DNA of 64,000 nt from Brachynemurus nebulosus (lineage: Eukaryota > Arthropoda > Insecta > Neuroptera > Myrmeleontidae), in NCBI GenBank assembly GCA_035578155.1, contig JAPWDM010000033.1, positions 2,067,001 through 2,131,000 on the forward strand. The letters are read 5' to 3'. The notes under the pieces are model-generated. The model did not search any database. It was not told where the DNA came from and saw nothing but the letters and a program-made list of their open reading frames with translations. The translations under genes and the position numbers were made by a program. Positions 10,559 to 48,317 of this stretch are shown one piece after another; position 1 is the stretch's first letter; the number at the start of each line of letters is the position of its first letter.

Positions 10559-10652
<94 letters not shown>

Positions 10653-15880: not shown

Positions 15881-15884
<4 letters not shown>

Positions 15885-15956
<72 letters not shown>
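15885..15956. repeat. (TA)n microsatellite at the right end of the 5.2-kb element
   Basis: About 70 bases of uninterrupted TA. It mirrors the (TA)n at 10559-10648 outside the left TIR. Confidence 0.95.
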
Positions 15957-20263: not shown

Positions 20264-23200
20264 ACCCTCAGGGGCTTGTTGTAACACCTGGTTGCTTAGG
20301 TGGTCGGTTGCTACAACAACACGGGAAGTAGCGCTCCCGGGGTTCCCGAGCTAAGACCAGGTACTTTCTGGTACCTGGTGCGTGGAGTCAACCAGCGCTA
20401 AATGGTGGTCTCTGTTAACGGGCTAACTACCCCTAACAGGTTTTAACTAGTTCCCAACGGTAATAGAACTAGGAAGGCTGGTCGTGCCGCGGGTCTCTCG
20501 GATGGGCCCGCACAAAAAGGCGGAACCAGTCAAAATTCATCTTCTCGTCTCGTGCGCCTGGAGTGGACGGACAGCTTGAGGAGAGATTTGCTCACGTGCC
20601 GCACACAAAGTGAGCCAAATAAGAGAGGGTACATGGCAAGGATGCATGCCATATGGTGCCAGATGCATCCCGAACACTCTAATTTAACGCCACAAAATCT
20701 GCGTGACCATGTAGCCCGAATTATAAAATTAAACATACCTACCGGACATGACGATAATCGAGAAGCTCGCGAAGAAGCTAGGGTTGCAGAAACTACAGTG
20801 GTGGAAGCTGAACAGGATTCTGCGGTCAACGGTGAGAGCTCGACCAATAACATCATAGAGCGAGATCAACCGGTAACTTGCGGTGGCAGCGTAGTTACTG
20901 AGGCACAGACGGACTTGTTAAATCAAGCCAACACAGATACTGTGCTAGAGTCTAACACCAGAACAAGTTCAGCTCCCACACAGAATGATGCCGATCTAAA
21001 TAAATCCCTTTCTGTCTCAGACAATTTAAGAAAACAATTTCGCGATCTTCTCGATACCGATTTAGACTTTGACAAACGACCACGTCCCAAATACCGACGG
21101 ACGTATATAAAGGGCGAACAACTGACCCTACTAAACGAAATTTTGGACGATCATCTATCCCCATCCAGTGATCTCACCGACGTCGACAACGCAGTATATG
21201 CAGCGATGCGTGTCCTGACCCCTTGTACTAAGCAGCAAAAGACTGCAGAGGAGAAGGCACGTATTCGTATTAAACAAATTGACACCAAGGTGAGGACACT
21301 ACGACAGCTGGTATCGCGTATCCAATGTGTGATAGAATATATTCAGACCAATAGGCGCTTTACGCGAAAGGTACGGGCTTTTGCCAGAGAACTAAGGTAC
21401 CGCTATCACACGATAAATTTGGGCAATCTGTTGACCATCAAACAGACACATTTGGATAAGATACGCGCATTGGCCCTGGCCAAGAAGAAAGTAGCCCGGC
21501 GTGAACGGTGTATTCGGGAAAATAAGATCTTTAACTCGAACCCTTCACGCCTGTTCGCATCTAAAAGCCCTGTCGTGGAGCAACCACCGAGGGTCGACGC
21601 AATAGAAGATTATTGGCGGGGGATATATGAGACGACTAAAGAGACTGACTTGGACTGTATTCCCATCAGCCAGTTTAGATGGTACTGCAAACAACAGCTT
21701 GGCAAAGTGCCATCTCACACCAATATAACATCTGTTGATAAAGAGGAAGTCGAACTTGCTTTCAAAGGCAAGAAGAACTATTCGGCTCCGGGCATTGATG
21801 GAATAACGAATTTTTGGTGGAAGAAGCTCGCTAGTATCCACCGCCACCTTGCCCGTATATTTTCAAATTGGTTATTTAACTGTGAGCCAATACCATCGTG
21901 GCTCGCTGAGGGAAGAACGGTCCTAATACCGAAAAAAGGAGACCTATCACAACCACAGAACTACAGACCGATAACGTGCCTGAACACTGTGTATAAAGCG
22001 TTCACTTCCATTCTATATGAACGCATCTTGAAGGCGATTGAACCAGTGTGGAGTTCGATCTATGAACAACGAGGTTCAAAAAGAGGAATGTCGGGTTGCA
22101 AAGACAACTTGCTGGTCGACAGATGTATCTGTCAGGACGCTAGACAGCACAAACGCAACCTGAGCATGGCCTGGGTGGACTATCGGAAAGCATTTGACAC
22201 AACGTCGCATGAGCTCATTATCTATTTGCTCCATTGTCTGCGAGTCCACCCCGAGATTATTAAATGTATTGAACACCTGTTGCCGCTCTGGAAAACAAGG
22301 TTCACAATAACATCCGGTGAACACGTTGTGTCAACGGAGTTGGTGACATACAAACGAGGCGTATACCAAGAAGACAGCCTCAGCCCACTTTTGTTTTGCA
22401 TCTCGTTGTTGCCCCTGTCAATCAGCCTGAGAGAGGAACCCGGGTATTTGTGTGGCCCGGTAGGAAATCGCGAGCATAAAGTCACACATTTATTTTATAT
22501 GGATGACTTAAAACTGTATGCCTCGTCGGAGAGTGATCTCAACTGCGCTCTAAAATTAACACACAAATACACGCACGCGATCGGTATGGAGTTCGGACTG
22601 GACAAATGCGCGGTGGTGCACTGTAAGCATGGTGTAGTTCCGAATTTTGATTCACACGCCCAATTAGTGGATGGAAGCATCATAGAACATCTTGATGAAG
22701 GAGCGACCTATACGTACCTTGGTGTTGGCGAAAGTCACATCCAGGACGTGAAGAACATGAAGGCCGCCTTAAGTAATAGATATAAGCGCCTTCTCCGACA
22801 GATTTGGAGTTCCGAATTGTCGGCGAAGAACAAGACCAGCGCTACAAATATGTTAGCCATACCCATCCTTTTATATACTTTTGGCTCAATTAAGTGGAAT
22901 GTGAATGAATTGGAGGCACTAGACCGAGACACGCGAAAAATAATGAATATCAACCGTAGTTTGCACTCACGCGCATCGACACAACGACTTTACCTCACAC
23001 GAGACCAGGGGGGGAGGGGGCTCCTGTCAGTCGAACGTTTACATGATCGTATAGTCTTAGGTACAGCTTGTCGTGTACTTAACAGTTCAGACCCGCTATT
23101 GCAACTCGTCAGGGATCACGAGATTGCTGGCGTAGGCGCATTTTTATTCACAGCAGCGCAACGTGCCGCCGATATCTTGGGTTAAGCCTTCGATCCGCGT

Positions 23201-24355
23201 AATCGCGACGGTGATGATAACATTCTTTCACTATCACAGTCGCGCCAAAAGTCGGCAATCAAGAGAGCCGAGCAACAACATCTGCTCAATAAACATCGCG
23301 ACAAAGTTCACCAGGGTATGTTCTACCGTCATCTTGACAACCTTGGCCTTTCGAGCGAACTCACTTGGGCTTTCTTGAGAGCTAATGGACTTAAATCGGA
23401 AACGGAGGGCTTTATCATGGCAGCTCAAGATGGAGTGTGGAACACTTTAACACACCAAAAATATGTGATGGGTAATAAAGGGGTTTCGAGTACCTCGTGT
23501 CGGGCATGCAAAGCATACCCGGAAACCTTAATGCACCTGACTTCAGGTTGTTCTTATTATGCTAAATCCACCTATATCCATCGCCATAATGCAGCGTTGC
23601 GTGTGCTCTACTTTTATCTTCGTCATCATTACGAAGTTGACAAAACACCAGTCTTGCCCTACGATCCTGGGGAAGTAGAATCCTTTGTTGCCAACCAAAA
23701 GTGCAAGATCTTTTGGAATATGCCGGTTGCAACTACCAGGCAATTGAACGCCAATAAGCCTGATGTTGTGCTCCAAGATTTAACATCTCAGACTATGTAT
23801 GTTATCGAGTTCTCTGCTCCGGCGGAAACTAACATAGTCGAAAAGGAGGAGCAAAAAAGGATTAAATATCAAGATCTAATACATGAACTGCGACAACTGT
23901 ACCCGGGCTATACTATCCGCTTGGTCGTACTTATAATCGGATGTCTGGGGGGTATGCATAACTCCTTTGTGCGCAATCTTAACATCATTCCGGCTTGTAG
24001 ATCTCACGCCAACATGTTAGCGGCGTCAATGCAAAAAGCAGTTATTATCGGGACGCTCCGCACGCTCCGGTCGCACGAGACGACTTTCTCCGGGAGTTCA
24101 TGAACACCTTTGAACGCCCATGCCCCGTTTAGAGCGGGTCCTCGAACATCCATTGGACCTGCCCTCGAATCTCCCACTGCCATGGTTTTGCAGCGAGGTT
24201 CGGGGATTTATTAGGTAGGGAAGACCAGGAAGGGGATGCTGTATGACGGACATTACGTACCTGACCTAGAAGTACCTGACCTGGTACGCTGCACGGACAC
24301 TTTTTCCTCCGCCTGGGGGTTTTTGAAGTGCAGTCGCGTTTTTCGTTAATCTTTC
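20264..24355 (+). mobile_element. R4/Dong-like non-LTR retrotransposon in (TAA)n, near full length
   Basis: A 4.1-kb unit with (TAA)n directly on both sides (20231-20263 and 24356-24399). It has a ~200-base structured 5' leader, one long ORF with a single stop, and a ~250-base 3' UTR. Insertion into TAA repeats, and an RT followed by a CCHC finger and a restriction-like endonuclease, are the features of the Dong element of the R4 clade. Orientation is plus. Confidence 0.85.
20552..24103 (+). pseudogene. Dong-like RT plus restriction-like endonuclease, one nonsense codon
   Basis: The same frame runs from upstream of 20552 to 24103 (about 1,180 codons), interrupted only by TAA at 23183-23185. 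GTG at 20552 is merely the first start-like codon; the frame is open further 5'. The N-terminus has a Myb-like WTDSLRRDLL segment. RT motifs follow: NYRPITCL, GSKRGMSGCKDNLLVDR, WVDYRKAFDT, a GVYQEDSLSPLLFC block where QGDS is usual, and the catalytic YMDD near 22500. Past the stop come a CxxC...H...C finger (CRACKAYPETLMHLTSGC, ~23502-23555) and a PD-(D/E)XK core (KPDVVL...YVIEFS, ~23755-23815), the endonuclease used for target cleavage. The one stop and the QED variant suggest a recent but dead copy. Confidence 0.85.
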
Positions 24356-24400: not shown

Positions 24401-26735
24401 GCCCTGTGGGTGGGTGCTTCACTTTGCAGAATTTCCCCACAGTAAGTCCTGCTTGTCGTAAAAGGCGACTAAAAGGACAACCCATTAGGATGGAGAATTT
24501 AAGAAAAGAAAAGCCTCGGAAAAATGCCGCTGCCGGTGGAGCGACCGGGCGCATCAGGGTCACCACTGAATGTGACAGCTTAGATCGCGGTGAAGATAGG
24601 GTGGGTTCTAGACAGCCACCTGTCAGCTGTAACAACACCTTCAGCCAAAATTCTACTGCCCTACTTACGGAGCCCCCAACACCTTTGGCTCAGCCGACTT
24701 TAAGAGTTTCCTCGGAGCATCCTTTGGGGACCACTAAAGCTGGTTAGAAGCGTGTGCGTATGCAATGGACAGATGAACTGAATGAATTCATCGTACGCAC
24801 ATACTTCAAAGTTACTAGACTTGAAACGGACAAAACTGGTTACCGTACAAAATTACATCAAGAGTTCGCGCGCAGCTACCCTCACCTAAGTCGCGTTACT
24901 GAACAGAGACTGGCAGACCAAAAACGTGTCATTTTTACCAATAACCTTATCCCTTCCTCCCTCATAAACACCATTAAAGTCGCACATCAATTTGCTCAAA
25001 ATGAAGAAACTCAGGCTGACGGCCCACCAGAAATGAGAAGCCCCACACCAAACGACATTCAACAACTTGTCGAGAATGAGCCTAGCCACTATGAGACAGC
25101 AGTAAATGACACCCTACTGCAAGAGATCGAACTGGAATTTAACACAGCGCTTACTGAATTGAATAAACGCATCAAGAACATCCGATGCAACCTCGGCAGG
25201 ATCACCCAATACCAACAGGGTACGAGGTCCAAACGGCTCAACAAATACATACACGACATATTACACAAACACACAGTACACACACAATACGACGAACCCA
25301 ATAAAACACTCACAGAGATCAGAGATACGCTTCATCAAAAATTAACAGCATTAGCGAAGCGCTTACGAAGGTATAAGACCAGTACTGAACGCAAACGACA
25401 AAACCAAGCGTTCAGCAGAAACGAGAGACGATTTTATCAGTCTCTAACGAACACGGTAACTGACAGTAATGGTCTACTGGAGAAGAACGCACTCCATAGT
25501 TTTTGGGCGAATATATGGTCCAACACCATTGACCATAATGACAAAGCCAGCTGGATCGATACAGAGTACAGGAATAACGAACATCTTCCGGAGATGTCCT
25601 ATACGGACATTACTACAGAGGACGTCTCCAGAGCTTTACAGAGATCGCATAACTGGAAGGCACCTGGCATCGACAACATACAAAACTACTGGCTCAAACA
25701 CTTTACATCAACACACAAGTATCTCGCTGAACAATTTACACTATTTATAAGAACACAAAACCTGACACCGAAGTTCCTAACGCAGGGTATCACATATATG
25801 AAATCAAAAAACAGTGATACAAAAAATCCTGCTAATTATAGGCCTATCACCTGCTTACCTACTGTGTATAAGACTTTGACGTCCTGTCTGGCAGAAAAGA
25901 TCAATGAACATTGTCAGATTAACACCATACTGACAGAAGAACAAAAGGGATGTCGAAAGAGGTCAGAAGGTTGCAAAGAGCAGCTTCTGATTGACTCCGT
26001 AGTACTGGAACAAGCGAAAGGAAGACAACGTAACCTGTACACAGCGTTTATTGATTACAAAAAGGCATTTGATTCGGTGCGGCACTCCTGGTTACGGAGA
26101 GTATTGGAGTTGTATAAAATACACCCAAGTATCGTGAACTTCCTTGGAACGATCATGTCCGAATGGCGAACGAGCTTACATTTGAGTATTGGTAACGAAA
26201 AAACAACAAGCGATCTTATTCAAGTAAGACGCGACATATTCCAAGGCGACTCATTGAGTCCATTATGGTTTTGTCTCGCAATGAATCCACTTTCACGCCT
26301 GTTGAATGAAACCAAATACGGTTATAATGTGGGGACAAAAATGAATTCGCGCCATACTATTTCACATCTAATGTACATGGATGATATAAAGATCTACGCA
26401 GCAACTAAACATCAATTACAGAAGCTGCTGGGACTTTCCAGGGAAGTTTCGCGAGACCTCTGCATGGAGTTCGGGATTGACAAATGTCGGACACAGTGTC
26501 GTTCTGGGGGAAAACGAGATGCGGTCGCATTTGAACTCGAACCGGAGTCTGTTATGCAGCCAATGGACGCGGGAGAGTCGTATCGGTATCTCGGATTCAA
26601 CCAGGATGAACGTATAGATCACAGCGCTGTAAAACAACACCTAATGCAGCAATACCTAGCGCGTGTACAGAAATTACTGAACACCCACCTTGATGGAAAA
26701 AAAACCATCAAAGCAATTAACACCTACGCAGTTCC
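24400..26735 (+). mobile_element. R4/Dong-like element, copy 2 (5' half through RT)
   Basis: It begins directly after (TAA)n with the leader gccctgtgggtgggtgcttc. It shows the Myb-like domain and a full RT but lacks finger and endonuclease, because it joins errantivirus sequence near 26736. Its 5' 300 bases match the fragment at 38122-38702. In-frame TAG at 24745-24747 replaces an AAG seen there and in copy 3, so it is a nonsense mutation. Relative to copies 1 and 3 it lacks about 270 bases near 25150. Confidence 0.85.
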
Positions 26736-27618
26736 ATGGATTTCCATGGATTTCGTGGGCCCGTTACCAGTAACAAAAAATGGAAACAAATTTATTTTAA
26801 CTATTCAAGATAATCTTACCAAACATCTGCAAGCGTACCCTATGCAAGATAGGAAAGCTGAAACAACGGCCATCTACTTTCTCAAATACGCAAGTACATT
26901 TGGATTTCCAAAATTTATCTTGACAGATCAAGATCACGTTTTTACAAGTGCTGTAATAAAAGAAGTTAATAAATTATTCAATATTAAACAGAAATTAACA
27001 TCCCCGTACCATCCACAAACTAATGGTTCATTGGAAAGAACCCACTCATACATTGAAAATTATCTCCGAGCGTACATAAACAACGATTTGGATGATTGGG
27101 ACGAAATGCTCTATTTGGCAACATTTTCATTTAATACACACGAAAATCGTTCTACATGTGAGACACCGTATAAATTAGTATTCGGGATTGAACCAAATAT
27201 TCCATCATCATTCGATAAAAATGTACCAGGACGCACGTATCAAGAACTTTCAACAGAAGTACAAGAAAAATTAAAAAATTTAAGAGTCGCAGCACGAGAA
27301 AATTTAAAGAAGAGTAAAACAAAAAATAAAGAACAATACGATAGAAAAACAAAAACAAGAAATTTTAAAATAGGAGACTTAGTGCTAGTTAAAGAAGGAC
27401 AATCAGCACCCGGCAAATTAGCCAATAGGTACAAAGGTCCCTACAAAATAATTTCTGTAAACCCCATAACACACACCGTTAAAATAAAAATGCAACGATC
27501 TATCAAAACGTACCACGAAAATAACTTAAAGCATTATCTTTCAGATGCTGAAGACGTTCTTCATTACACTGATGTTACACCACACGATAGCCGAACTACT
27601 GGTGGAACACATCAATAA
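24754..27618 (+). CDS. Chimeric ORF: Dong-like RT fused in frame to errantivirus integrase
   Basis: This is 954 uninterrupted codons. Residues 1-~660 are the Dong-like Myb segment (MQWTDELNEFIVRTYF) and RT: NYRPITCLPT, FIDYKKAFDSV, DIFQGDSLSP, and YMDD at ~26380. From about residue 662 it becomes an LTR-retrotransposon integrase core. The first catalytic Asp is in MDFVGPL, the second in LTDQDHVF and the Glu in NGSLERTH, a D,D-35-E arrangement. A C-terminal chromatin/DNA-binding tail follows (GDLVLVKEG, LANRYKGPYKI). The integrase HHCC domain is missing. The join lies in a tandem ccatggattt repeat at about 26735-26755. A TAG at 24745 separates the frame from the Dong N-terminus. No evidence of expression can be seen; chance maintenance of an open frame is likelier than a functional fusion. 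Confidence 0.85.
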   Translation: MRMQWTDELNEFIVRTYFKVTRLETDKTGYRTKLHQEFARSYPHLSRVTEQRLADQKRVIFTNNLIPSSLINTIKVAHQFAQNEETQADGPPEMRSPTPNDIQQLVENEPSHYETAVNDTLLQEIELEFNTALTELNKRIKNIRCNLGRITQYQQGTRSKRLNKYIHDILHKHTVHTQYDEPNKTLTEIRDTLHQKLTALAKRLRRYKTSTERKRQNQAFSRNERRFYQSLTNTVTDSNGLLEKNALHSFWANIWSNTIDHNDKASWIDTEYRNNEHLPEMSYTDITTEDVSRALQRSHNWKAPGIDNIQNYWLKHFTSTHKYLAEQFTLFIRTQNLTPKFLTQGITYMKSKNSDTKNPANYRPITCLPTVYKTLTSCLAEKINEHCQINTILTEEQKGCRKRSEGCKEQLLIDSVVLEQAKGRQRNLYTAFIDYKKAFDSVRHSWLRRVLELYKIHPSIVNFLGTIMSEWRTSLHLSIGNEKTTSDLIQVRRDIFQGDSLSPLWFCLAMNPLSRLLNETKYGYNVGTKMNSRHTISHLMYMDDIKIYAATKHQLQKLLGLSREVSRDLCMEFGIDKCRTQCRSGGKRDAVAFELEPESVMQPMDAGESYRYLGFNQDERIDHSAVKQHLMQQYLARVQKLLNTHLDGKKTIKAINTYAVPWISMDFVGPLPVTKNGNKFILTIQDNLTKHLQAYPMQDRKAETTAIYFLKYASTFGFPKFILTDQDHVFTSAVIKEVNKLFNIKQKLTSPYHPQTNGSLERTHSYIENYLRAYINNDLDDWDEMLYLATFSFNTHENRSTCETPYKLVFGIEPNIPSSFDKNVPGRTYQELSTEVQEKLKNLRVAARENLKKSKTKNKEQYDRKTKTRNFKIGDLVLVKEGQSAPGKLANRYKGPYKIISVNPITHTVKIKMQRSIKTYHENNLKHYLSDAEDVLHYTDVTPHDSRTTGGTHQ

Positions 27619-29545
27619 ATCTCCGGGAATATTTTTCCATAAACTCGGGAATACAAAAATTTGCAATCAAGAACTGACCCTCATACATTACATAAACACT
27701 ACAACATTTGAAGAAACTTTAAACATCGCCACTAACTACTACCATAAATCGTATGTATTTTGTAAAACATTACCAAACGATCACTCCAGTTATTCAACAT
27801 GTAAACTTCAACAAAAACTCTTAGTTCAACAAATGGAAGAAATTAAATCATTATTAAAAAATGTTCAAGCACACCATATAAGAAGACGCAGAGGACTCAT
27901 CAATGCAGGTTCAAAAATAATTAAATGGCTTATCGGTACACCGGATTCAAATGACGCTACCTTTTATGAAAATTCCATTAATTCCCTCATCGAAGACCGA
28001 AAAACCACCCACCTTATGATGAAAGACCAAATCAAAATCCTTTCTGAGACCATGAACACCTTAAACAAAATACTAACAACAATACAAGACGCTGAACAAG
28101 AACTAAATGCAAATATTAAATTATTTAATCGTTACATTAATAATTCTTCTAAAATAATTAATGATAATTCATTTGAAATAAATCTTTTAGATCACCTCTT
28201 ACTCATTAAACAATTAAATGATTTAAACTTTAGACAATTACAATCGTATAGCACAACCTTAACTTTAATTAGACATGGTATCATAGTATCATATTATAAT
28301 GTAGTATCATATGGTATCATGGTATCATATTATAATGTAGTTAATCCAACCAATTTATTAAACGAATTGAAGCAAGTTTCTTCTTTAGAACTGCCAATCA
28401 AAGTAGATGCTGAAGATATAGAAAGTTATTATAAAATAATGCAAGTTAAAGCTTTCATGAAAGAAAACGTACTAGTAATTTTATTAAAGGTGCCCATTGC
28501 ACAAATAACCGATTACAGCTTATACCAAGCTTTTCCTCTTCCTACACCATTAAATAATTCTAATCAAGTTTCTTACATTACTACTGACTACCCTTATATC
28601 ATATCCAGCAGAGGTAAATCTCAATTCGCTTTACTGAAACAACTCGATAACTGTAAATCAATAAATAATCTTTACATATGCCAAAACATCGATACGATGC
28701 AAAGACATACGGACGACATTTGTGAATTGGAACTATTCGATCTACAAGAAACGTCAATTCCAAAATCATGTAAAACAACGACGATTTACGCGCAGCCTGA
28801 AATATGGCAGAAAATTTCAACAAACCAATGGCTTTTCATTCTATCCAAACCCACAAGAGGAAGCTCACTATGCACCAATGGAGAAGATGAAGAAAAATTA
28901 CTTCAAGGAATTGGTTTACTAAAAATTACAAACGAATGTCGATTCATGACAAATAACATTTTACTCCAACCCGAAGTTTCACTGAAGAACATTTCCACTT
29001 ACCTGCACATATCAAGCATCAATATATTAGAAGACGACTGTTGCAAATACCTACATCGGGAAGAAAAATTAACACCAAATTACATGAAACCCATCAAGCT
29101 GACAAATTTGGACTTAAATGAAGTAAAATACACGCAACACCAGCTACTGAAGATGGATGAAAACTTACAAAGTCAAATCAACAAACCGTTCATCATCAAA
29201 TACGAAAGCACAATTTATAATTGGTTGTGTTACATTGGAGTTACCGCTCTATCAACGCTCGCACTCTACTACCTATATAAATATGGAGTCTTCAAAACAA
29301 TACTAACGATTTTTTCAAAAATATTCAATTGTCTAATGCCATGTAAGAAGAATGGTGGTGATACCTTCAACTTCTACAACTGTCTATTTGGGGACAACAG
29401 AAAAAATCAAGTTCAACCCTACAACGCACAAACGGTCATCGAACCAGCCAATCATGAAACAATTGTACTACGTGAACGAAAGAAATCATATTCAACTTCA
29501 TCAAGCGTCACCGGGCGAAGATCAATCTGTCCAGTTCAACTTTAA
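27545..29545 (+). CDS. env: Errantivirus envelope (baculovirus F-like fusion protein)
   Basis: This is 666 codons from an ATG overlapping the last 74 bases of the integrase frame, the usual errantivirus arrangement. An N-terminal hydrophobic stretch (MLKTFFITLML) can serve as signal peptide. A furin-type site RRRR (~residues 113-116) precedes a GLINAGSKIIKWLIG fusion-peptide-like segment; then come long helical regions and a C-terminal membrane span (~residues 560-580, ALSTLALYYLYKYGVF) with a cytoplasmic tail. This matches F-type fusion proteins, which mediate membrane fusion during entry. A 36-bp in-frame tandem duplication (28277-28340) repeats the HGIIVSYYNVV-like segment and may disturb the fold. 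No stop or frameshift is seen in the frame. Confidence 0.85.
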   Translation: MLKTFFITLMLHHTIAELLVEHINKSPGIFFHKLGNTKICNQELTLIHYINTTTFEETLNIATNYYHKSYVFCKTLPNDHSSYSTCKLQQKLLVQQMEEIKSLLKNVQAHHIRRRRGLINAGSKIIKWLIGTPDSNDATFYENSINSLIEDRKTTHLMMKDQIKILSETMNTLNKILTTIQDAEQELNANIKLFNRYINNSSKIINDNSFEINLLDHLLLIKQLNDLNFRQLQSYSTTLTLIRHGIIVSYYNVVSYGIMVSYYNVVNPTNLLNELKQVSSLELPIKVDAEDIESYYKIMQVKAFMKENVLVILLKVPIAQITDYSLYQAFPLPTPLNNSNQVSYITTDYPYIISSRGKSQFALLKQLDNCKSINNLYICQNIDTMQRHTDDICELELFDLQETSIPKSCKTTTIYAQPEIWQKISTNQWLFILSKPTRGSSLCTNGEDEEKLLQGIGLLKITNECRFMTNNILLQPEVSLKNISTYLHISSINILEDDCCKYLHREEKLTPNYMKPIKLTNLDLNEVKYTQHQLLKMDENLQSQINKPFIIKYESTIYNWLCYIGVTALSTLALYYLYKYGVFKTILTIFSKIFNCLMPCKKNGGDTFNFYNCLFGDNRKNQVQPYNAQTVIEPANHETIVLRERKKSYSTSSSVTGRRSICPVQL

Positions 29546-29599: not shown

Positions 29600-29740
29600 T
29601 GTCGTGTACTGTACCTCGTACACTTTACAATATAAAAATACTTAATCAACAATTTCGTATTAAATTACATTTTTAAATCTTATTTTTTCTAGAAAAATAT
29701 TAAAACAAAATTTATTAGTATTCTCTGTATTTTTCCTACA
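29600..29740 (+). repeat. Truncated 3' LTR of the errantivirus
   Basis: It starts TGTCGTG after the purine tract, is AT-rich, and breaks where I-like endonuclease coding sequence begins (about 29740). No second LTR is present in the window, so LTR ends cannot be confirmed. Confidence 0.55.
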
Positions 29741-29741
29741 A

Positions 29742-32700
29742 GCCCTACAAGCTATAGCAGTACAATTTTTAAAACCGCCGCAGTTCACAGTATGCTCGGT
29801 CTACTTACCAGACTTCGACTGGAATGTCGAATCCCTGACCGAGCTTACATTGCAGTTACCACGTCCATTTTTGTTACTAGGAGATTTTAATGCTTACAGC
29901 CCCATGTGGGGCTGTAGCACAAGAGACGCCCGTGGAAGACTCATAGAACGGTTTCTAGACGAGTCTGAAGCGGTTTTGTTAAATTCCGGTGAAGGTACTT
30001 ACATCAATGCAAGAACCGGTGAGTTGTCGGCTATCGACTTATCACTTGGCTCACCGGTCATGGCGCACCGTTATGAGTGGACGCTGGCGTCAGACTCATA
30101 CGGTAGCGACCATATACCCATTATTTTGAATAGTACCATGCCGATGACTCCACAATCGTCTTCGCCGAGATGGCGTCTCCGTCAAGCTGACTGGGACATG
30201 TACGTCGATTCATTCCGTACACCCGAGCTGACTGGAGACGTAGAAGATGATGTGGAGCAAATGTCCTCCAGTGTCATTGAAACAGCACATAAGAGTATAC
30301 CTATGTCGTCCAACATTCCACCTAAACGTCGCTTGCCATGGTGGAATGAAGTCGTGAGAGTAGCAGTTGCCGAGAAAACGCGGGCGTACCACGAACTCAG
30401 ACGTCGCCCCACGCAGGAAAATGTGATAGCCTACAAACGTGCGCAAGCACGCTGTAAACGCACTATAAAAGAACAAAAGAGGCTGTCCTGGGAGCAATAT
30501 GTTTCGGCCATTAATACCTCCACTACAACTTCGGAGGTATGGAGAAGAGTGAGGGCCATTACAGGGAAATCCTCCCGTTCACCAATGCCCTCCCTTCTCA
30601 TCGTCGACGGTCGGAACATCACTGAACGCGCAGAAATAGCTAATTGCTTAGCTAAGCACTTTGAGCGCGTCAGTGGCTCCCAGAATTATGACCCGGACTT
30701 CCTGCGGATCAAGATCGAACATGAACAAAATGATCTTGATTTTTTCTCAGATGAATCCCTCCAGTATAACCAACCGTTTTCTATGCAAGAATTACTGGAG
30801 GCGCTTCGGGGATCTGGGGACACTTCCCCTGGACCTGATGAGATCCCCTACGCCATGATCCGGAACCTGCCTTATCCTGGTAAGTGTAGGTTACTGGATT
30901 TTTACAACGAAATATTTAGGCAAGGCGTTTACCCTCCGCAGTGGCGAGAAGCTACCATCATTCCGCTGCTTAAAGAGGGAAAGATTCATCGCAACTAACG
31001 AGCTACCGTCCAATATCCTTGACTTGCTGTTTCAGCAAGGTGTTGGAAAAAATGGTGAACAACTGTCTCGTCTGGTGGCTGGAATCCCACAATCTCATTC
31101 CTAAACATCAATGTGGGTTCCGCCGATACCATTCGACTACGGACCATCTTGTTCGCCTCGAGAATGCTATTCAAGACGCCTTTCTCCAACGAAAACACCT
31201 TGTGGCCGTGTTTTTCGATTTGGAGAAAGCTTATGATATGACCTGGAGGTATGGCATTCTCAAGAAGCTGCACGACTGGGGTTTAAGAGGTAACCTCCCT
31301 CAGTTCGTAAAAAGTTTTCTGACTGACCGCACGTTTCGTGTCCGGGTAGGTGACACTGAGTCTGAGGCCCACTCCCAGGAGAATGGTGTTCCTCAAGGCT
31401 CCACCATTAGTGTCACCTTCTTTTCCATCGCAGTCAGTCATATTGCAGCTTCAGCGCCAATTCGTCGTTGCTTGTACGTTGATGACCTCACTATATTCTA
31501 TGCAGCCGATTCCATCGAGGATATTCAACAACGGCTGCAACTAGGCATCAACGAAGTGGTGACTTCTGCAGAAGCTCTTGGTTTTCGATTTTCACCCCAA
31601 AAGACATCGGTGGTACACTTCTGCAGAAAGCGCAACGCACATCCGGATCCTGTCCTCACTTTAAAAGGATCCAATCTCCAGTGCGTTGATAGCGTCAGGT
31701 TTCTAGGACTCATATTCGATAAACAACTTACGTGGCGCCCACACCTCCAAGCCTTAGCTGCGAGTTGTCGCAGGACAATAAACATGCTTAAATGCTTGGC
31801 AGGTGCATCGTGGGGTGCGGGCCGGGAGTCGTTGCTTCGCCTGTATCAGTCGCTAGTTCTGACTAGGATTGATTACGGCAGCATTGCTTACTCCTCCGCC
31901 CGGGCGTCTGCGCTTCTACTCCTAGATCCTGTTCACCATGCAGGCATACGACTGGCTACGGGAGCATTTCGAACGAGCCCTTCTATGAGCCTCTGCGTAG
32001 AGTCGAGTCTTCCTCCGCTGCGACTGAGACGTGAACGTCTCTTGCTCAATTATGCACCGGGGATATATGCAACACCTTCACATATAAACCACCCGACTCT
32101 ATTCAGATACCGTTTACAGGGGCTCTATGGTCGACGTCCCACCATCAGTCGACCAGTGGCCGTTCAAACGCAGGAGTTATTAGAGAGTCTCAACTTACAG
32201 TTCGCCAGGGTACTTCCCAAATGTCCTATGGAAGTACCTCCTTGGCTGATCCCTAACGTAAGGTGTCGTTTCGACCTGACTGGTCTCAACAAGGAGGAGA
32301 CCAGTTCATTCGAATATCGATCCCGCTTTTATGAGATCATTAGCGAACTTGACTCTCTCTGCATATACACAGATGGTTCCAAAACAGCTACGGGTGTTGG
32401 AAGTGCCATCGTCATTCGTGACGATCCTCACGCTTGGTCACTTCCTCCCCAGGCCATTGTGTATAGTGCAGAATTATTTGCTATTTTGCAAGCCCTGCGA
32501 TTCTGTCAAACATCCGAAGACAGCGCATTCCTCATTTGTTCCGACTCTTTGAGCGCGTTGCAAGCGATCTGCCACTCTCATACCATATAGCCGAAGTCGG
32601 TGAGCGACAGGACATTGCCATACGCCCAGAGGATCTGAGAGTGAGCATACGATCCGCGATCGAACATAAATGGCAACGTGAGTGGAACAACCTCACGGCA

Positions 32701-32872
32701 AAGCTCAGACAGGTGAAACCTGAGGTCCGAAGAACTCCGGCACCTGTAAATCTGAGCCGGCGAGAGAGTGTGGCCCTGACGCGTTTACACTTGGGCCACA
32801 CGGCGTTAGCACATCGTCATCTTCTCGCCGGCTTTAGGGGCATACCATCTCTGATTTTACAAGTCGTCTCTT
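29742..32872 (+). pseudogene. I-like non-LTR retrotransposon ORF2 (APE, RT, RNase H), 5'-truncated
   Basis: The frame enters in the middle of an apurinic-type endonuclease (LLLGDFNAYSPMWG; SDHIPIIL at the end). It continues through the linker and RT: GPDEIPYAMI, SYRPISLTCC, FFDLEKAYDMTW, NGVPQGSTIS, and catalytic YVDD near 31480. It then enters an RNase H domain (YTDGSKTATGVGSA, AELFAIL, SDSLSAL). A one-base frameshift near 30985 separates 29850-30998 from 31019-32590. Another lesion after SDSLSALQAI (about 32560) shifts to the C-terminal frame 32536-32872 and removes part of the RNase H. APE+RT+RNase H suggests the I group (I, LOA, Outcast). The hairpin-array copy B follows ~110 bases after the stop and ends in (TAA)n, as the Drosophila I factor does, so copy B could be this element's 3' UTR. 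Confidence 0.75.
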
Positions 32873-32980
32873 GATTCTCCCCCGATAGTTCAGAATTTTA
32901 TTCCAGTTACGTTTTTAATCTATGTGTTAAAATGATTTTGTGAGTGTCCTAATTTATTTATTTATTAACGATATCCTGTT

Positions 32981-33212
32981 CCAGCTGGTCTGGCAGGGTA
33001 CTTTTAGTCTTATCGTTATGCCACTAAGGGCCTTTTACACCCTTGGTGGTACTGTTTGTTATTTATACTTGTTGTCTTGTTTTGTTATTGTTTTTTATCG
33101 ATGTACCACCGAAGGCCTTTTACACTCGAGGTGGTACATCACTTGTTTTAATTTATCTGTTATATTTTGTTATGCCGCTGTGGGCCTGTTGTTATGGCTC
33201 CACAGCGGTATT
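32981..33212 (+). mobile_element. Hairpin-array retroposon, copy B, part 1
   Basis: It starts at the same CAGCTGGTCTGGCAGGG word as copy A and runs through three hairpins. Against copy A the stems change on both sides: GATGTACCACC/GGTGGTACATC instead of GATGTGCCACC/GGTGGCACATC, and GCTGTGG/CCACAGC instead of GCTGTAG/CTACAGC. It is interrupted at 33212 by the minus-strand element and resumes at 35149. Confidence 0.75.
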
Positions 33213-35901: not shown

Positions 35902-35927
35902 ATAATAATAATAATAATAATAATAAT

Positions 35928-37217
35928 GGTGGTGAGGACACCTATAGCAGCTGCCCTTGGCACCCGTGAGGGATATTTATCCCCCATTGGTGTCAAGGAG
36001 GCTAAGGGTTCCCGGGGTAGTTTATGCGCAATACAGTAATCTTCGGATTCCATTAGCCTCTGACTACTCAAGATCGGCACCGTTCCTTCTCGAGGTACCA
36101 CTGTTTCCACAAAAGATGCCGGATCAAAATTTTCGACGAGGACGACCGTCGTAGGATCGACAGAGGTTTCCACCGTATGTGAGAAATACCATCGTCTGCT
36201 AAATGCTTGTAATTCTCGCCCTGATGTCTGGCTGTAGCGTCGAATGTGTTTAGTATCCACATGTGTGTGAATACCGAAATCGTGACTCGAATTCGGAGGA
36301 GTCGAAAAGTGATATCGTCTGTGATTTGTGGAATTCTCGTCTGTGATAGCCTTGTACCTGTGTTTTTATTTTATCTTTTACTCTGCATCCACTGGTTGGT
36401 GCACACCGGTGTTGCATTTCTGTGATAGAGAGCCGTGTTTTGTTCTCATCATATCGATGGGTAGGAGCGCGGCCCTCGACGCACTGGTTCTCCTTTGTGA
36501 GCGACGTCTGTCTGAACGGTTCGAGCATGCTCACCTAGTAAGCAGAAACGTCGGTCGTTCCTCACATGGATGCATTCTATGGGGTCGATGTGGCCGCTTC
36601 CGCCCCCTCGGTGTGATGGGAACAAAATGGGAATTTCTGTGATACTCCGTGGGACTGTCCTGTTCTCTGTAGCCTCGACTCGGACGAATGTGGCCTAGTT
36701 AAGTACCGGTCTCCCGTGTAAGTTGAACCCCGACGTCTGACTGAACGGTTGTAAGTTATTCACTTAGTAAGCAGACGTCATTTGTTCCTTACACGGACGA
36801 GTTCCTATGAGTTGACGGAGCCGTTTCGGAATTGTCGAGAGTATGGAGAGCAGGATCTTGCCACGGGGCAGTTATTTGTGTTTTTTTGTGCTGTGATAGT
36901 TATGTAACCAGAGCTGTGATATTTCTTGTTTTGTCTTTTTTAACTAAGTCTTGCGTTGTTGCTTCTTTTTTAACCATTCTTGTTTTTGTGTTCATCCCTT
37001 TTAACTTTGTTATGGCACCAGAGGCTCTTTACACCCCTGGTGTTATTGTTTTAATTCGTTTTTTTTTTTATACTTTCAGGCAGAATGCACCTAGTCAGCT
37101 GGTCTGACTGGTATTTGTTATCTCCTTTTTAAGCCTGTATTTGTTATGCCACTGGATGACTTCAGGCCACTTGTATATAAAAGAAAAAAAATTAAAAATT
37201 TTGAAATAAATGAGTAG

Positions 37218-37294
<77 letters not shown>

Positions 37295-37645
37295 TGTGGA
37301 ATTGCTCTGCATCGCTGGGTGGTTCATCCATTCAGCGTTGCAAAGATCTCATAATACCCATTTGAGGCAGGGCACTTCGTTGGTTTCGGCGTTATACGCT
37401 ATGCCCTGTCCTTACAGAGCATTTCCCTAGACCCTGGGATGGCAGGGTCTGCTTGTTATTCTATTTTTATTGTATTTGTTTATCCGTTGTCTAGTGCATT
37501 TATGTGTCCCTGTCTGTTTTATGTATGTTTTTTATTTACTATCGTTTGTATGGCGGCGCATGCCCTCCGCTGGCGATGCCGCCGGACACTGCTGACCGCG
37601 CCATTCACCGGCAGCAGTGCTTCAATTTTAATTTAAAAAAAAATA
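35928..37645 (+). mobile_element. Hairpin-array retroposon, copy C (long, with different 5' end)
   Basis: It is bounded by (TAA)n on both sides. The 5' ~90 bases form stems (GACACC/GGTGTC around GGGATATTTATCCC, or TTGGCACC/GGTGTCAA) followed by gctaaggg. The middle is collinear with copy E (gtcgaaaagtgatat, cctcgactcggacgaa, ccggtctcccgtgta). The 3' module is standard, but its stem reads ACCCTGGG/GGCAGGGT where A, B, D, E and F have GCCCTGGG/GGCAGGGC. A (TA)n tract at about 37219-37291 expands one linker. No coding frame is supported. Confidence 0.7.
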
Positions 37646-38121: not shown

Positions 38122-38702
38122 AACGCCCTGTGGGTGGGGGCTTCACTTTGCAGAATTTGCCCACAGTAAGTCCTGCTTGTCGTAAAAGGCGACTAAAAGG
38201 ACAACCCATTAGGATGGAGAAAATAAGAAAAAGGCCTCGGAAAACTGCCGCTGCCGGTGGAGCGACCGGGCGCATCAGGGTCACCACTGAATGTGACAGC
38301 TCAGATCACGGTGACGACAGGTTGGGTTCTAGGCAGCCACCTGTCAGCTGTAACAACACCTTCAGCCAAAATGCTACTGCCCTACTTACGGAGCCCCCAA
38401 CACCTTTGGCTCAGCCGACTTTAAGTGTTTCCTCAGAGCATCCTTTGGGGACCACTAAAGCTGGTAAGAAGCGTGTGCGTATGCAATGGACAAATGAACT
38501 GAATGAATTCATCGTACGCACATACTTCCAAGTTACTAGACTTGAAACGGACAAAACTGGTTACCGTACGAAATTACATCAAGAGTTCGCGCGCACCTAC
38601 CCTCACCTTAGTCGCGTCACTGAACAGAGACTGGCAGACCAAAAACGTGTCATTTTTACCAATAACCTTATCCCTTCCTCCCTCATAAACACGATTAAAA
38701 CA
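38122..38702 (+). mobile_element. R4/Dong-like element, 5' fragment
   Basis: It has the same leader and N-terminal coding sequence as copy 2 (24400 onward), with an open frame through AGKKRVRMQWTNELNEF. It retains AAG where copy 2 has a stop. It ends abruptly at gattaaaaca, where (TAA)n and copy E begin. The leader contains CTGTGGG/CCCACAG and a two-part stem GTCCT...AGGAC enclosing GTCG...CGAC, conserved with copy 2. Confidence 0.8.
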
Positions 38703-38727
38703 TAATAATAATAATAATAATAATAAT

Positions 38728-38812
38728 GCTGGGCTAAAATCCAACCTTCACGTCCCCGTTCGTGCCCGGCGGGCAACTGTTAGCTTCGGCTAGCAGGCTG
38801 ACGAGGCTCTGG
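38728..38812 (+). ncRNA. Candidate HDV-like self-cleaving ribozyme (copy E)
   Basis: Hand fold: P1 38728-38734 (GCTGGGC) with 38764-38770 (GCCCGGC), 7 bp with one G-U. P2 CCT 38745-38747 with AGG 38804-38806, extended by CCA/TGG past an internal loop. P3 ACG 38750-38752 with CGT 38761-38763, enclosing the pyrimidine-rich L3 tccccgtt that can form P1.1 with GG of J1/4 (GGGCAA, 38771-38776). P4 CTGTTAGC 38777-38784 with GCTAGCAG 38789-38796 and a TTCG loop. J4/2 is GCTGACG with CTGA fitting the CNRA motif, C38798 as putative catalytic cytosine. Cleavage would occur 5' of G38728, exactly at the (TAA)n boundary. The double-pseudoknot order P1-P2-P3-P1'-P4-P2' is the HDV topology. Such ribozymes are known at 5' ends of R2, RTE and other non-LTR elements. 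Confidence 0.75.
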
Positions 38813-40240
38813 TACCGTGTTTCGACAAGGATGATCGTGTGGAGGGGACGATGTCGTATCCCCCGAGTGAGTGTTATGCCTGCGTCAGCTTGAGTTTCAT
38901 TAATAGTACCTTGACCGGAATTCAACGCGTCTCCAGTGCTGCATACTCCAGTGGGCGTGATCTTCGGAGTCCGACGATACCGTTCGGATGCGTCGAAAAG
39001 GTGATATTGCGTCTGTGATTTATGTAAAAATTGTGATCTGTGTCTGTGATGGTTGTTATGCCACCTTGGGTTCTCATGCCTGCGGTGGTACTTTTTAATT
39101 GTTACTGTGATGTTTCCCTGGCCTTGTTCTTGTCATTTCGATGGGTAAGAATGCGGCTCCCGACGCACTAGTTCTCATCGGCCACACGTACGAGTCGACG
39201 TCTTCCCGAACAGCTTGAGCGAGCTCGCCCAGTAAGGAGACGTCGTCGTCCCTCGTACGGATGCGTTCGTGGGCGTTGAAATGGCGGCTTCCGCCCCGTC
39301 GAAGTGATACGGACACAGGTCAGATGTTGGCTCTGTGATACTCTGTGGCATTGTCCCGTTCTCTGTAGCCTCGACTCGGACGAACGTGGCCTAGTCATCG
39401 TACCGGTCTCCCGTGTAGGTTGACCCCGATATCTGACAGAACGGCACATGTACCCAGTAATCAGTTATCTGACAGAACAGTACATGTTGCTCAGTAATCA
39501 GATGTCACTGTCCCTACACATGTGAGTTCCTAGGTGTTGACGAAGCCATTTCGGAACTGTCGAGACTATGGGGAGCGGAATCGTGTCACAGAGCAAGAAA
39601 TTTTTGAAATCTGTGATATTGTTGTTTTTATTTTTTAATAAGATTGTGTTTAATCCGTTTTGTTTTAACGATGTACCACTGAGGGCCTTTTCCACCCGAG
39701 GTGGTACATCATTTTTTTTTTTATTCTTATCTGTGATATTTTATTGTGCCGCTGTGGGCTTGCTGTTGTAGCCCTTCAGCGGTTTTGTTTTTAACTACTT
39801 ATTGCGGCACTGGTCGGCCTGTGGCTCCCCAGTGACGTAATAAGATTTTCCTCTTATATTTTTTTTTCTTTCCTTGTGATATTATTGTGATGTTGTTATC
39901 TGTGATATTTTTACTCAGTATTCTCCACTTCGAGGCCCTTTACACCTCGGAGTTTCATCGTTGGTTTTCAGTCCTTGGTGACCGGACGTTCTGGCTAGTA
40001 CTTAGCGTACCGCCACCAAGGACTGTCCGCTCGTTATGAAGCCCTGGGATGGCAGGGCTCATCGGTGAATTTTATCATGTGTATGTTTGTCCGTTGTCTA
40101 ATGCATTTATGTGTTCCTGTCTATATGTGTCGTTTTTATCATTTTTCCGTTTTGGCGGCGCATGCCCTTCGATGGCGATGCCGCCGGATACTGCTGACCG
40201 CGCCATCCACCGGCAGCAGTGTCCCAATTTTAATTAAAAA
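38728..40240 (+). mobile_element. Hairpin-array retroposon, copy E (full length)
   Basis: A 1.5-kb non-coding unit between (TAA)n tracts. It opens with the HDV-like ribozyme fold (38728-38812), continues with the copy C-like middle region, and then carries the chain of hairpins: GATGTACCAC/GTGGTACATC, CCGCTG/CAGCGG, GCACTGG/CCAGTGA, the pseudoknot near 39970-40030, and the GCCCTGGG/GGCAGGGC and GGCGGC/GCCGCC stems. It ends attttaatt plus A/(TAA)n. The repeated linker tctgtgatatt occurs several times. Confidence 0.8.
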
Positions 40241-40241
40241 A

Positions 40242-40275
<34 letters not shown>

Positions 40276-44213: not shown

Positions 44214-44225
44214 AATAATTCAAAT

Positions 44226-44310
44226 GTCGGGCATAAATCCAACCCCTCGCCCTCGTCGTGCTCGGCGGTAACTGCTAGCTGGCTAGCAGGCTAACGGGGC
44301 TCTGGTTGGT
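44226..44310 (+). ncRNA. Candidate HDV-like self-cleaving ribozyme (copy F)
   Basis: P1 GTCGGGC 44226-44232 with GCTCGGC 44260-44266 (7 bp, two G-U). P2 CCCC 44243-44246 with GGGG 44296-44299, plus CCA/TGG beyond an internal loop. P3 is weak (TCG 44247-44249 with CGT 44257-44259, one mismatch). L3 ccctcgt resembles the HDV L3. J1/4 GGTAA. P4 CTGCTAGC 44272-44279 with GCTAGCAG 44282-44289, with a very short loop so the inner pairs must open. J4/2 GCTAAC has CTAA (CNRA), C44291 putative catalytic. Compared with copy E, P2 changes CCT/AGG to CCC/GGG and P4 replaces a G-U pair. G44226 directly follows the target-site duplication, where an HDV-like ribozyme would generate the element's 5' end. Confidence 0.75.
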
Positions 44311-45397
44311 TAATAAATAAGACGAACACAAGATCTTTTAACACATAAATTGTTTTTTATTTATTGTTATTGTCTTTGTCCCACGTTTGTGTTTCTTGCC
44401 ACTGGAGGTCCTTGGGGCCTCCAACGGTGTTGTTGTAATCCCCACTGTACCCCTGGGTGGTTCTAGGCCCTCGGAGACGTAGTGGGTTGGCTGTGATATT
44501 TTGTTGTTGTTTTCTTGTTGTTGTATTTTGTTGAATTTTTGTTTGATTTGTTTTTTGCTAACGGAGGCTCTTGAAGCCTCCAGTAGTGTTGTTAGGATCC
44601 CCATTGCACCAGTGGGTGGTTCTAGGCCCCCACGAGTGCAGTGGGTTACTGTGATAACCATCTGTGATATTTTTTTTTTGTCTTGTTATGTTTTGAACTG
44701 TTTTTTGTTATACTACCGGATGTCTTTTGTTTATCAAGGGTGGTATTATTTTCTCCTTTTCAATTGTTTACTGTACCCGCTGGGTGGACGCCAACGAACC
44801 CCAGCGGGAGCTGTCTCGTCTTACAACTTTTTATTTTGATTTCATCTGGAAAGCTCGTATATATCCAAGCAACTCGTTCCGATTAGCTACTCTTTATGAG
44901 ACGGAGTACATATGCTCAGGGTATGCCATCGGCAGTTTTGCGCCGTTGGTCATATCAGTGCTGATCTTGTGCATGGTATCCACCGAGTGGTTTTAAACTC
45001 TCAATGGAATACCAATATAGCTAAATGAACCCTAACAAGCAGCAGTATTTCCACAGACAGCAATCATAATTCGTCCCGCAACATTGGAGTTGTTTTAGCC
45101 TCTATTGTTGCATGAGTGTCCGGTTGTACCTGAGGACAGGGTATTCACTGATTTGCAATGTCTTGTCCACACTGAGCATATTTATGGGCCCTGGGATGGC
45201 AGGGCCCCTCGTTGGCTTTTCTTTTAATGTGTAACTGTCCTTTGTCTATTGCATTTATGTGTCCCTGTCTTTGTGTGTGTTTAATAATTTTGTCGTGTTC
45301 TGGCGGCGCATGCCCATAGATGGCGATGCCGCCGGGCACTGCTGACCGCGCCATCCACCGGCAGCAGTGTCCCAATTTTAATCAAAAAAAATAAAAA
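44226..45397 (+). mobile_element. Hairpin-array retroposon, copy F (complete, with 12-bp target duplication)
   Basis: AATAATTCAAAT at 44214-44225 is repeated at 45398-45409, defining a 1,172-bp insertion outside a long (TAA)n tract. The first base inside is G of the ribozyme fold. The interior has its own hairpins (GGAGG...CCTCC near 44404-44425; CCCACTG...AGTGGG near 44440-44490; again near 44560-44650; CCGCTGGG/CCCAGCGG near 44778-44810) that differ from copy E. The 3' ~200 bases are the shared module, ending attttaatc and an A-rich tail. No coding frame is supported. Confidence 0.85.
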
Positions 45398-45409
45398 AAT
45401 AATTCAAAT

Positions 45410-47059: not shown

Positions 47060-48309
47060 GGTAATATGTTTGTACGCACGGAAAAAAAATTTAAATGGAT
47101 CGATTTTGAAAATTTTTTCACTAATAATCATTAATGTTAGAAAATTAAACAAATTTAAATGGATTTAAGATATCTTACGTGAGATCCGTCAGGGTATTGG
47201 GGACCTAAAAACGCGGAAAATTAATTACCCAATCGATTTTGAAAATTTTTTCACAGTTAGTAAGTTAAAGTATTTGAATTAGTTAAGTAATTAAATGATG
47301 TCCGCAAGAACCTCACGGACTGCCATAAGTTATATGAGATCCATAGGACCCTTTTTTTACTGTTAGAGAGATAAAATTTTTACTAAAATTATTTTAGATG
47401 AATAAATATTATGTTGTATGAGTTCCGCCAGAGTTTACTGATCCCATAAATGTAAAAAATAAACTAACCGACCAATTTTGAAAATTTTGTCACTGATACA
47501 GAGCTAATCTATTTTAGATAGATATAGATTACGTTATGTAAGGTCCGCCAGGGTCCATAGAACCCAGAAGTATCAAAAATAAACTAACCGGCCGATTTTG
47601 AAAATTTTTTCACTGTTACGAACCTAAGCTATTTTAGATAGATATAGATTACGTTACATATAGAAATTTTTTCGCTATTAGAGAGCTAAACTATTTTAGA
47701 TGGATATAAATTACGTTATGAAAGGTCGGCCAGGGTCCGTGGGATCTAAAAGTGTCAAAAATAGAATAACCGACCGATTTTGAAAATTTTTTTACTGTTA
47801 GAGAAGTAAGCTATTTTAGATAGATATAGATTACGTTATGTAAGATCCGCCGGAGTCCATGGGACCCAAATGTGTCAAAAATGAAATAAGTCACCGATTT
47901 TGAAAATTTTTTCACTGTTACAGAGGTAAACAATTTTAGATGGATATAGCTTATATGTTGTATGAGGTCGGTCAGGATCCTGGGATCTTAAAAGCGCCAA
48001 AAATAAATTAACCGACCGATTTTGAAAATTTTTTCACTGTTACAGAGGTAAACAATTTTAGATGGATTTAGCTTATATATTGTATGAGGTCGGTCAGAAT
48101 CCTGGGATCTTAAAAGCGCCAAAAATAAACTAACCGACCGATTTTGAAAATTTTTTCACTGTTAGAGAGCTAAATTAGTTTAGATAGATATAGATTACGT
48201 TATGTAAGGTCCGACAGCGTCAGTGGGACCCAAAAGTATCAAAAATAAAATAACTGACCGATTTTGAAAATTTTTTCACTATTACAGAGGTAAATTTAGA
48301 TAAATACAG
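47060..48309. repeat. ~120-bp tandem satellite, left part
   Basis: About ten diverged units. The conserved word is gattttgaaaattttttcac, with starts near 47101, 47233, 47479, 47594, 47778, 47898, 48017, 48138 and 48259; the best-preserved spacing is 115-121 bases. Each unit also carries ttttagatrgatata and aggtccgccagggtcc. It is interrupted by the hAT-like element and resumes at 50649. Confidence 0.85.
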
Positions 48310-48317
48310 GTTGTGTT

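Follow-up and report, generated by a model that had tools for sequence, protein, structure and literature searches.

A predicted HDV-like ribozyme at the 5' end of a likely chimeric, non-coding retroposon in Brachynemurus nebulosus (Myrmeleontidae)

Positions 44226-44299 of the window (the whole stretch of 64,000 nucleotides of contig JAPWDM010000033.1 that was analysed) form the 5' end of a non-autonomous retroposon, which is likely a chimera: a predicted HDV-like ribozyme likely cuts its RNA between 44225 and 44226, and its 3' end is that of a LINE with APE endonuclease, reverse transcriptase (RT) and RNase H. We put the probability of this reading at about 0.77. The observations behind it are complementarity that is kept among copies, a uniform 5' end, target-site duplications, a 3' UTR shared with the LINE that runs into A and (TAA)n, and a body that shows no coding similarity. 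Because a ribozyme-type start is combined with the tail of another LINE, the element likely trims its own RNA from longer transcripts and borrows the machinery of the LINE.

Results and Discussion

Termini and predicted 5' fold of two copies in the window

Two copies of the retroposon that carry the predicted ribozyme, designated F and E, lie on the plus strand of the window.

44214..44225, plus strand: target-site duplication, upstream copy AATAATTCAAAT (12 bp; also met by the anchor-free repeat search)
44226..45397, plus strand: copy F, non-coding retroposon (1172 bp)
44226..44299, plus strand: predicted HDV-like ribozyme of copy F (first 74 bases; P1, P2, P3 and P4 in HDV order)
45188..45397, plus strand: 3' ~210 nt of copy F, common to other copies and to the 3' UTR of the APE-type LINE, with an A-rich tail at its end
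45398..45409, plus strand: target-site duplication, downstream copy of AATAATTCAAAT (12 bp, perfect match)
38702..38727, plus strand: (TAA)n array hosting the copy E insertion (sequence; flank-repeat search)
38728..40245, plus strand: copy E, non-coding retroposon (~1.5 kb, 1518 nt), ending in an A tail and (TAA)n
38728..38807, plus strand: predicted HDV-like ribozyme of copy E, better preserved than that of copy F (descriptor, Rfam)

The first-pass annotation of this DNA had placed a 12-bp duplication around 44226-45397, with the first inside base as G1 of an HDV-like fold, and both were found as claimed, the duplication being perfect. The helices and joining segments that it listed were likewise each present in copy F: P1 (44226-44232/44260-44266) is paired at seven of seven positions, two of them G-U, P2 (44243-44246/44296-44299) at four of four, and P4 (44272-44278/44283-44289) at seven of seven; J1/2 occupies 44233-44242, J1/4 runs from 44267 and begins with GG, and J4/2 (44290-44295) holds a CTAA with the predicted catalytic C, C44291. 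P3 (44247-44249/44257-44259, UCG/CGU), which closes L3 at 44250-44256, has two of three pairs formed and a U-U mismatch at the first; a relaxed descriptor found an alternative register with a 6-bp P1 and a 3-bp P3 including a G-U pair. The weak P3 and the tiny P4 loop had been named as the doubtful parts of the fold. The former is indeed weak, its U-U mismatch being common to the F-type subfamily (43/47 rows), and relatives account for both doubts, P3 being 3 bp long and P4 ending in a UUCG loop in E-type copies. Copy E begins at the base homologous to G1 of copy F, and its fold comprises a 3-bp P3 (ACG/CGU), an 8-nt L3, a UUCG-capped P4 and a CTGA in J4/2.

Folded alone, the ribozyme of copy F gave a best nested structure of -25.3 kcal/mol from which P1 was absent, compared with -16.2 kcal/mol for the nested HDV helices (pseudoknot P2 uncounted), and the corresponding values for locus L057 were -26.5 (P1 absent) and -21.5 kcal/mol (P2 uncounted). 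The folding energy of copy F was no better than that of shuffled sequences (z -0.88). The minimum-energy fold of the whole copy E element (1518 nt) includes P1, P3 and P4, and with the helices in double-pseudoknot order (P2 closed after J4/2) the E-type keeps all of them, and the F-type P1, P2, P4 and two of three P3 pairs. With a changed first base of L3 (C; U in 45 of 47 rows) and a competing fold, copy F is a poorer witness than its relatives; it may be poorly active, to judge from its E value of 0.51 with RF02682, and is probably less active than the E-type copies.

Genomic copies and target-site duplications

The first 175 bases of copy F returned 772 first-look candidates from the genome and copy E returned 896, both figures counting candidates and not confirmed copies. 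For each query 40 were scored, the window copy included. All 39 further copies fetched with copy F start at the homologous base and are flanked by (TAA)n or unrelated sequence, their alignments beginning at query base 1, 3 or 4 and being extended back to base 1. A query of this kind returns only copies that possess the 5' end, 5'-truncated copies being outside its reach. Truncation at the 5' end is usual among LINE-type elements; the six copies of the 3' tail in the window comprise two with the ribozyme, one with a LINE 5' end (at 35927), and three that are truncated or uncertain in their start. The 40 scored matches of copy E were all 100% identical over 123 nt, and since only the best matches were scored, they show a large identical group and not the whole family. 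Judged by this identity, E-type copies look as if they spread recently.

The set of ribozyme copies assembled for comparison has 52 rows, a lower bound, as copies with identical flank and sequence were merged. Copies without P1/P2 complementarity, or starting elsewhere, had been named in the first-pass annotation as evidence against the ribozyme; those found through their 5' ends keep the pairing and share the same start. The kept pairing and uniform start lend support to the 5' processing by an HDV-like ribozyme that had been proposed, self-cleavage itself being predicted.

An anchor-free search for the longest repeat between both flanks was applied to 41 copies, three of which had no 3' tail in reach, and 15 showed only (TAA)n-like repeats, eight of these stopping just before G1. 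The other flank repeats (n = 23, copy F included) end just before G1 in 11 cases, one or two bases past that boundary in seven, perhaps extended by chance, fall short of it by one or two bases in three, and end elsewhere in two. Target-site duplications are 9-17 bp long, mostly 11-14 bp. In L033, the copy at about 200 has a duplication, AATAATGCCGGGC, that contains the first seven bases of the neighbouring copy, so that one element was inserted at the 5' end of another.

The retroposon body

Subfamilies of ~850, 1040, 1172 and 1520 bp have the 5' ribozyme and the 3' ~210 nt in common, and between these shared parts their interiors are different or rearranged. A tblastn search with 28 homologues and the proteins of two other LINEs of the window (LINE A and LINE B, below), directed at four types of the retroposon and at another non-coding element, which starts at 35927, found no coding similarity (best E 0.15, for the 35927 element), and APE-type endonuclease (EN) and RT sequences had no match in copies E and F at E 1e-5. 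The longest open stretch was 132 aa in the retroposon types and 146 aa in the 35927 element. The interiors of copy F (44390-44660), copy E, L032 and L046 contain repeated hairpin-forming segments and repeated TGTGAT motifs, with ten of the motifs in copy E (0.7 expected from shuffles) and three in copy F (0.5 expected).

A likely partner LINE and the probably chimeric make-up of the retroposon

A broken copy of the likely partner LINE spans 29664-33212, beside the retroposon copies, and a non-coding derivative lies downstream of it.

29664..30998, plus strand: APE endonuclease ORF of the likely partner LINE, broken copy (Pfam)
30974..32590, plus strand: RT/RNase H ORF of the likely partner LINE, broken copy (Pfam; relatives)
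33003..33212, plus strand: piece of the partner LINE 3' UTR, similar to positions 931-1059 of copy E, then (TAA)n
35927..37630, plus strand: non-coding derivative whose first ~199 nt are the partner LINE 5' end and which carries the shared 3' tail

The partner LINE shows features of the I type, namely an ORF2 that encodes APE, RT and RNase H, and TAA repeats at the 3' end, its RNase H scoring below the Pfam cut-off (20.7 and 25.6 versus 25.8 bits); an upstream open frame of 567 aa is a possible ORF1. Its 3' UTR, read at L053, L055, L059 and L061, is 78-82% identical to copy E from 886-936 to ~1512, and 82-84% identical to the last ~200 nt of copy F. The LINE-like 3' end amounts to ~200 nt in copy F and ~585 nt in copy E, and is followed by an A tail and (TAA)n. 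The LINE's own 5' end, seen together with EN and RT ORFs at L050:5544 and L053:4882, differs from that of the retroposon and is common to the 35927 element, which ends in the shared tail; descriptor and folding revealed no convincing HDV-like fold at the start of either the LINE or the 35927 element. Since the 3' UTR is shared and the 5' ends differ, the retroposon appears to join a LINE 3' end to a foreign 5' end, and from these alignments it looks chimeric, with an HDV-like 5' end and the 3' end of an APE-endonuclease/RT/RNase H LINE. The 5' end common to the partner LINE and its derivative (35927-36030) forms a strong hairpin (z -2.3) followed by CTAA, which is not HDV-like by the tests applied and is possibly another processing or promoter structure.

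Alternatively, the retroposon could be an internal-deletion derivative (SIDE) of a single LINE that carries the ribozyme at its own 5' end and is located outside the loci read. What was read of the 960-Mb genome comprised the window, 20 loci of 10 kb, 39 short loci and another 8 of ~3 kb that were put to little use, LINE families can change their 5' ends, and the APE-type LINE was seen end to end in no fetched locus, its 5' end coming from L050 and L053 and its 3' UTR from the four loci named above, the two being linked via the ORFs and the 35927 element. However, the LINE with the matching 3' UTR has another 5' end at L050:5544 and L053:4882, and the 35927 element, itself non-coding, unites that LINE 5' end with the shared 3' tail, which makes the derivation from one LINE unlikely.

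Other mobile elements in the window

Two further LINEs were considered as partners and rejected. Both LINE A (20447-24103) and LINE B (from 24748) have 5' and 3' ends that differ from those of the retroposon, and Rfam lists no HDV family at the 5' end of either. They are related to each other and lie in (TAA)n arrays (LINE B at 24748-26742). The RT of LINE A is R2-like, and its C-terminal part is reminiscent of a restriction-like endonuclease, Pfam giving no match there; the closest named relatives of LINE A include beetles (Callosobruchus) and a lacewing. LINE B is interrupted by the remnant of an LTR-type element (26743-29545; integrase core, then an envelope-like ORF). Inverted-repeat arms at 10579-11490 and 15047-15956, ~96-97% complementary, surround ORFs at 11816-13653, of which the one tested had no Pfam match; the arrangement may be a DNA transposon. 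A satellite-like array of ~120-nt repeats occupies 47170-48310.

Identification and conservation of the HDV-like fold

Narrow Rfam scans (131 bases each) placed the HDV-like families RF02682 (38728-38808, E 0.004) and RF00094 (E 0.0084) at the head of the table for copy E, and the same two families led among 4,227 for L057 (E 0.00044 and 0.0032, respectively). Copy F was matched by the whole RF02682 model at 44226-44301 (E 0.51, 15.9 bits; top of two rows), and the F-type copy L032 only by a truncated drz-agam-2-2 match (7.5 bits, E 5.7) that ranked after another family. In this covariance-model search, which the first-pass annotation had suggested, the RF02682 match starts at G1 in copy E, L057 and copy F, and all scores fall below the Rfam gathering scores of 44 and 50 bits, the best (L057) reaching 30.9 of 50 and 29.1 of 44. 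The whole-window scan at gathering scores gave no match. Around copy F, no HDV family appeared in a permissive scan over 1301 bases; this result and that for L032 speak against the weaker copies.

A descriptor written from copy F was run on both strands of the window and on 60 block shuffles of the plus strand. It matched two positions on the plus strand and none on the minus strand; the shuffles yielded 37 matches, about 0.6 per shuffled strand, with at least one in 26 of 60. This count is unremarkable, and we reject it, as well as the folding z-score, as proof. Both real matches (38728 and 44226) are exact 5' ends of retroposon copies. A relaxed descriptor gave six solutions inside the LINE A 5' region (starts 20276-20278) and two inside the 35927 element (starts 35955-35956), none beginning at the first base of its element, and no solution at two LINE B 5' ends.

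In the alignment of copies, P1 is paired at seven of seven positions, and P3 at two of three, in 43 of 47 rows each; the P2 counts over the 47 rows leave out L044:205. The catalytic C of HDV-like ribozymes, located in J4/2, sits in a C-N-R-A context. Here all 52 rows have the predicted catalytic C, and 51 of them have it in the C-N-R-A context. A conserved G in L3 is described as forming a reverse wobble pair with a U of the same loop (available part of PMC3774820); the G is kept in 46 of 47 rows and the first L3 base is U in 45, the pairing U having been assigned by position.

Over 21 distinct sequences, 95.0% of cells are standard-paired, compared with 29-52% for structures slid by one to three columns. 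P1, P2 and P4 are paired in 97.6-98.6% of cells, and the first P3 pair is formed in 6 of the 21 sequences. None of the 500 shuffles came up to the observed covariation score or to the observed number of cells with changes on both sides. The three pairs with a two-sided change do not stand out, as 28 of the 500 shuffles had at least as many, nor do the 12 further pair types, a number reached in 197 of the 500. The clearest covarying pair, in P2, is C-G in 15 sequences, U-A in 6 and broken in none, a change that may be one inherited event, because the six U-A sequences are the E-type group. Run over the window and 20 loci, a covariance model built from the same alignment recovered 38 full-length 5' ends, along with 11 short matches (E 0.62) that correspond to P4 hairpins on the opposite strand.

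A conserved promoter at the 5' end, or an RNA structure bound by RT or ORF1, with the HDV-like fold as an incidental feature or a dead relic, could account for the P3 mismatch of the F-type, for the competing folds, and for the conserved sequence of J1/2, which the ribozyme does not obviously need (in the alignment, L032 is entered one base late and L066 breaks off slightly early). In trypanosomatid L1Tc, the region that holds the ribozyme doubles as a promoter, according to the available part of PMC4035085, and both functions can therefore coexist. Pairing that is kept in both the E- and F-types with a two-sided change in P2, the catalytic C in 52 of 52 rows, and Rfam HDV models in register with G1 would, however, be unexpected of a promoter, and we regard this explanation as highly unlikely.

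Origin of the ribozyme

The 5' end of Dong from Bombyx mori is known from a printed primer, and its cleavage after the TAA repeats was confirmed co-transcriptionally (available part of PMC3774820). Compared with the letters of that primer, copy E agrees at 15 of 18 bases with one gap, which none of 30,000 shuffles equalled, and the F-type at 12 of 18 (92 of 30,000 shuffles as good). A pattern search for the Bombyx Dong 24-mer with up to three mismatches returned no match, and no Dong-type LINE with the 5' end of the retroposon was found, LINE A and LINE B having other ends. The agreement with Bombyx Dong lies in the 5' strand and J1/2 of the ribozyme, which therefore likely derives from a LINE of the Dong type, a donor that we infer from this similarity. 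The fold might be a fortuitous likeness at a repeat end, as the ~0.6 descriptor matches per shuffled strand and the lack of any Rfam match at gathering score could suggest, but this is hardly credible in view of the G1 register in two subtypes, the E value of 0.00044 in L057, the kept pairing and the similarity to the Dong 5' end.

Head-to-tail arrays

The arrangement of copies was examined in the window and 20 loci, a sample biased towards arrays, as these were the 20 of 40 matches picked for lying in or near TAA tracts. It contains 38 ribozyme 5' ends, 36 of them with a tail following, and in 22 cases of this array-biased sample a tail is followed by the next ribozyme within 150 nt; 18 of these 22 spacers consist of only A and T beyond the first four bases. 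L066 has five copies in a row. Since copies are often head to tail, the ribozymes could provide their upstream neighbours with UAA-ended RNAs. We tentatively suggest, as a possibility of rather low probability, that the head-to-tail (TAA)n arrays are self-processing multimers in which each ribozyme also trims the RNA of its upstream neighbour to (UAA)n. If so, arrays would yield unit-length RNAs ready for insertion, like viroid-like multimers, with (UAA)n as the 3' end needed for I-type reverse transcription.

A possible mode of propagation

The retroposon would be transcribed by read-through from host promoters, and its RNA would be cleaved co-transcriptionally before G1 by the J4/2 cytosine C44291. 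The 3' tail might then be bound or recognised by the RT of the LINE, and target-primed insertion with short duplications would follow, often into the (TAA)n of older copies; these steps are read here from marks in the sequence alone. The family suggests that the ribozyme is a transferable 5' module, coupled in this case, away from rDNA, to the 3' end of another LINE lineage. It raises the questions whether a non-autonomous element can do with a ribozyme in place of a promoter, and whether arrays of such elements are self-processing at both ends. The system should be testable, since E-type copies look recent.

Comparison with known systems

LINEs, and a few deletion derivatives, are already known to carry HDV-like ribozymes at their 5' ends. 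Our search turned up no previous description of a non-autonomous element with a Dong-type ribozyme, subscription literature, one key non-LTR ribozyme paper included, lying mostly outside that search. The sources compared below are cited from their available parts.

Like the retroposon described here, Dong of B. mori (R4 clade) has a ribozyme that begins at the junction of TAA and element, but Dong is a LINE (PMC3774820), whereas the retroposon is without coding similarity and takes its 3' end from another LINE. Membership of Dong/R4 is defined by the RT coding sequence of the clade, and in the non-coding retroposon only the ribozyme is Dong-like. The trypanosomatid NARTc/NARTco and SIDERs are also non-autonomous elements with 5' HDV-like ribozymes, several of which were shown to cleave; their ribozyme comes from the L1Tc/ingi lineage, and sequence and host are different (PMC4035085). 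The partner LINE resembles the Drosophila I element, which has APE, RT and RNase H in ORF2 and 3' TAA repeats (PMC3747384, PMC2881922), and is by these features a candidate member of the I clade; a search of its own 5' end revealed no HDV-like ribozyme. Precise initiation in the I element reportedly requires tandem UAA repeats (PMC3747384), and this requirement, with the TAA end, fits a mobilisation of the retroposon by the partner LINE.

The closest parallel in construction is provided by the R2/R1 hybrid SIDEs of Drosophila, whose ribozymes cleave in vitro: they too are non-coding and are interspersed as copies in tandem arrays, and they unite an HDV-like ribozyme and a 3' UTR that come from two LINE lineages (PMC3414825), as is likely for the retroposon. 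The size of their target-site duplication is typical of the 3' donor. They differ in residing at the R1 site of rDNA and in being composed of R2 and R1 parts (PMC3414825); the copies fetched here adjoin (TAA)n arrays or other, unrelated flanks and not rDNA with R2/R1 sequences. Further differences from the R2/R1 SIDEs are the Dong-like ribozyme, the 3' end from a TAA-ended APE/RT/RNase H LINE, the long modular interior, and first-look candidates that number in the hundreds. Taken together, these comparisons indicate that the retroposon would work like a hybrid SIDE, yet is not an R2/R1 SIDE.
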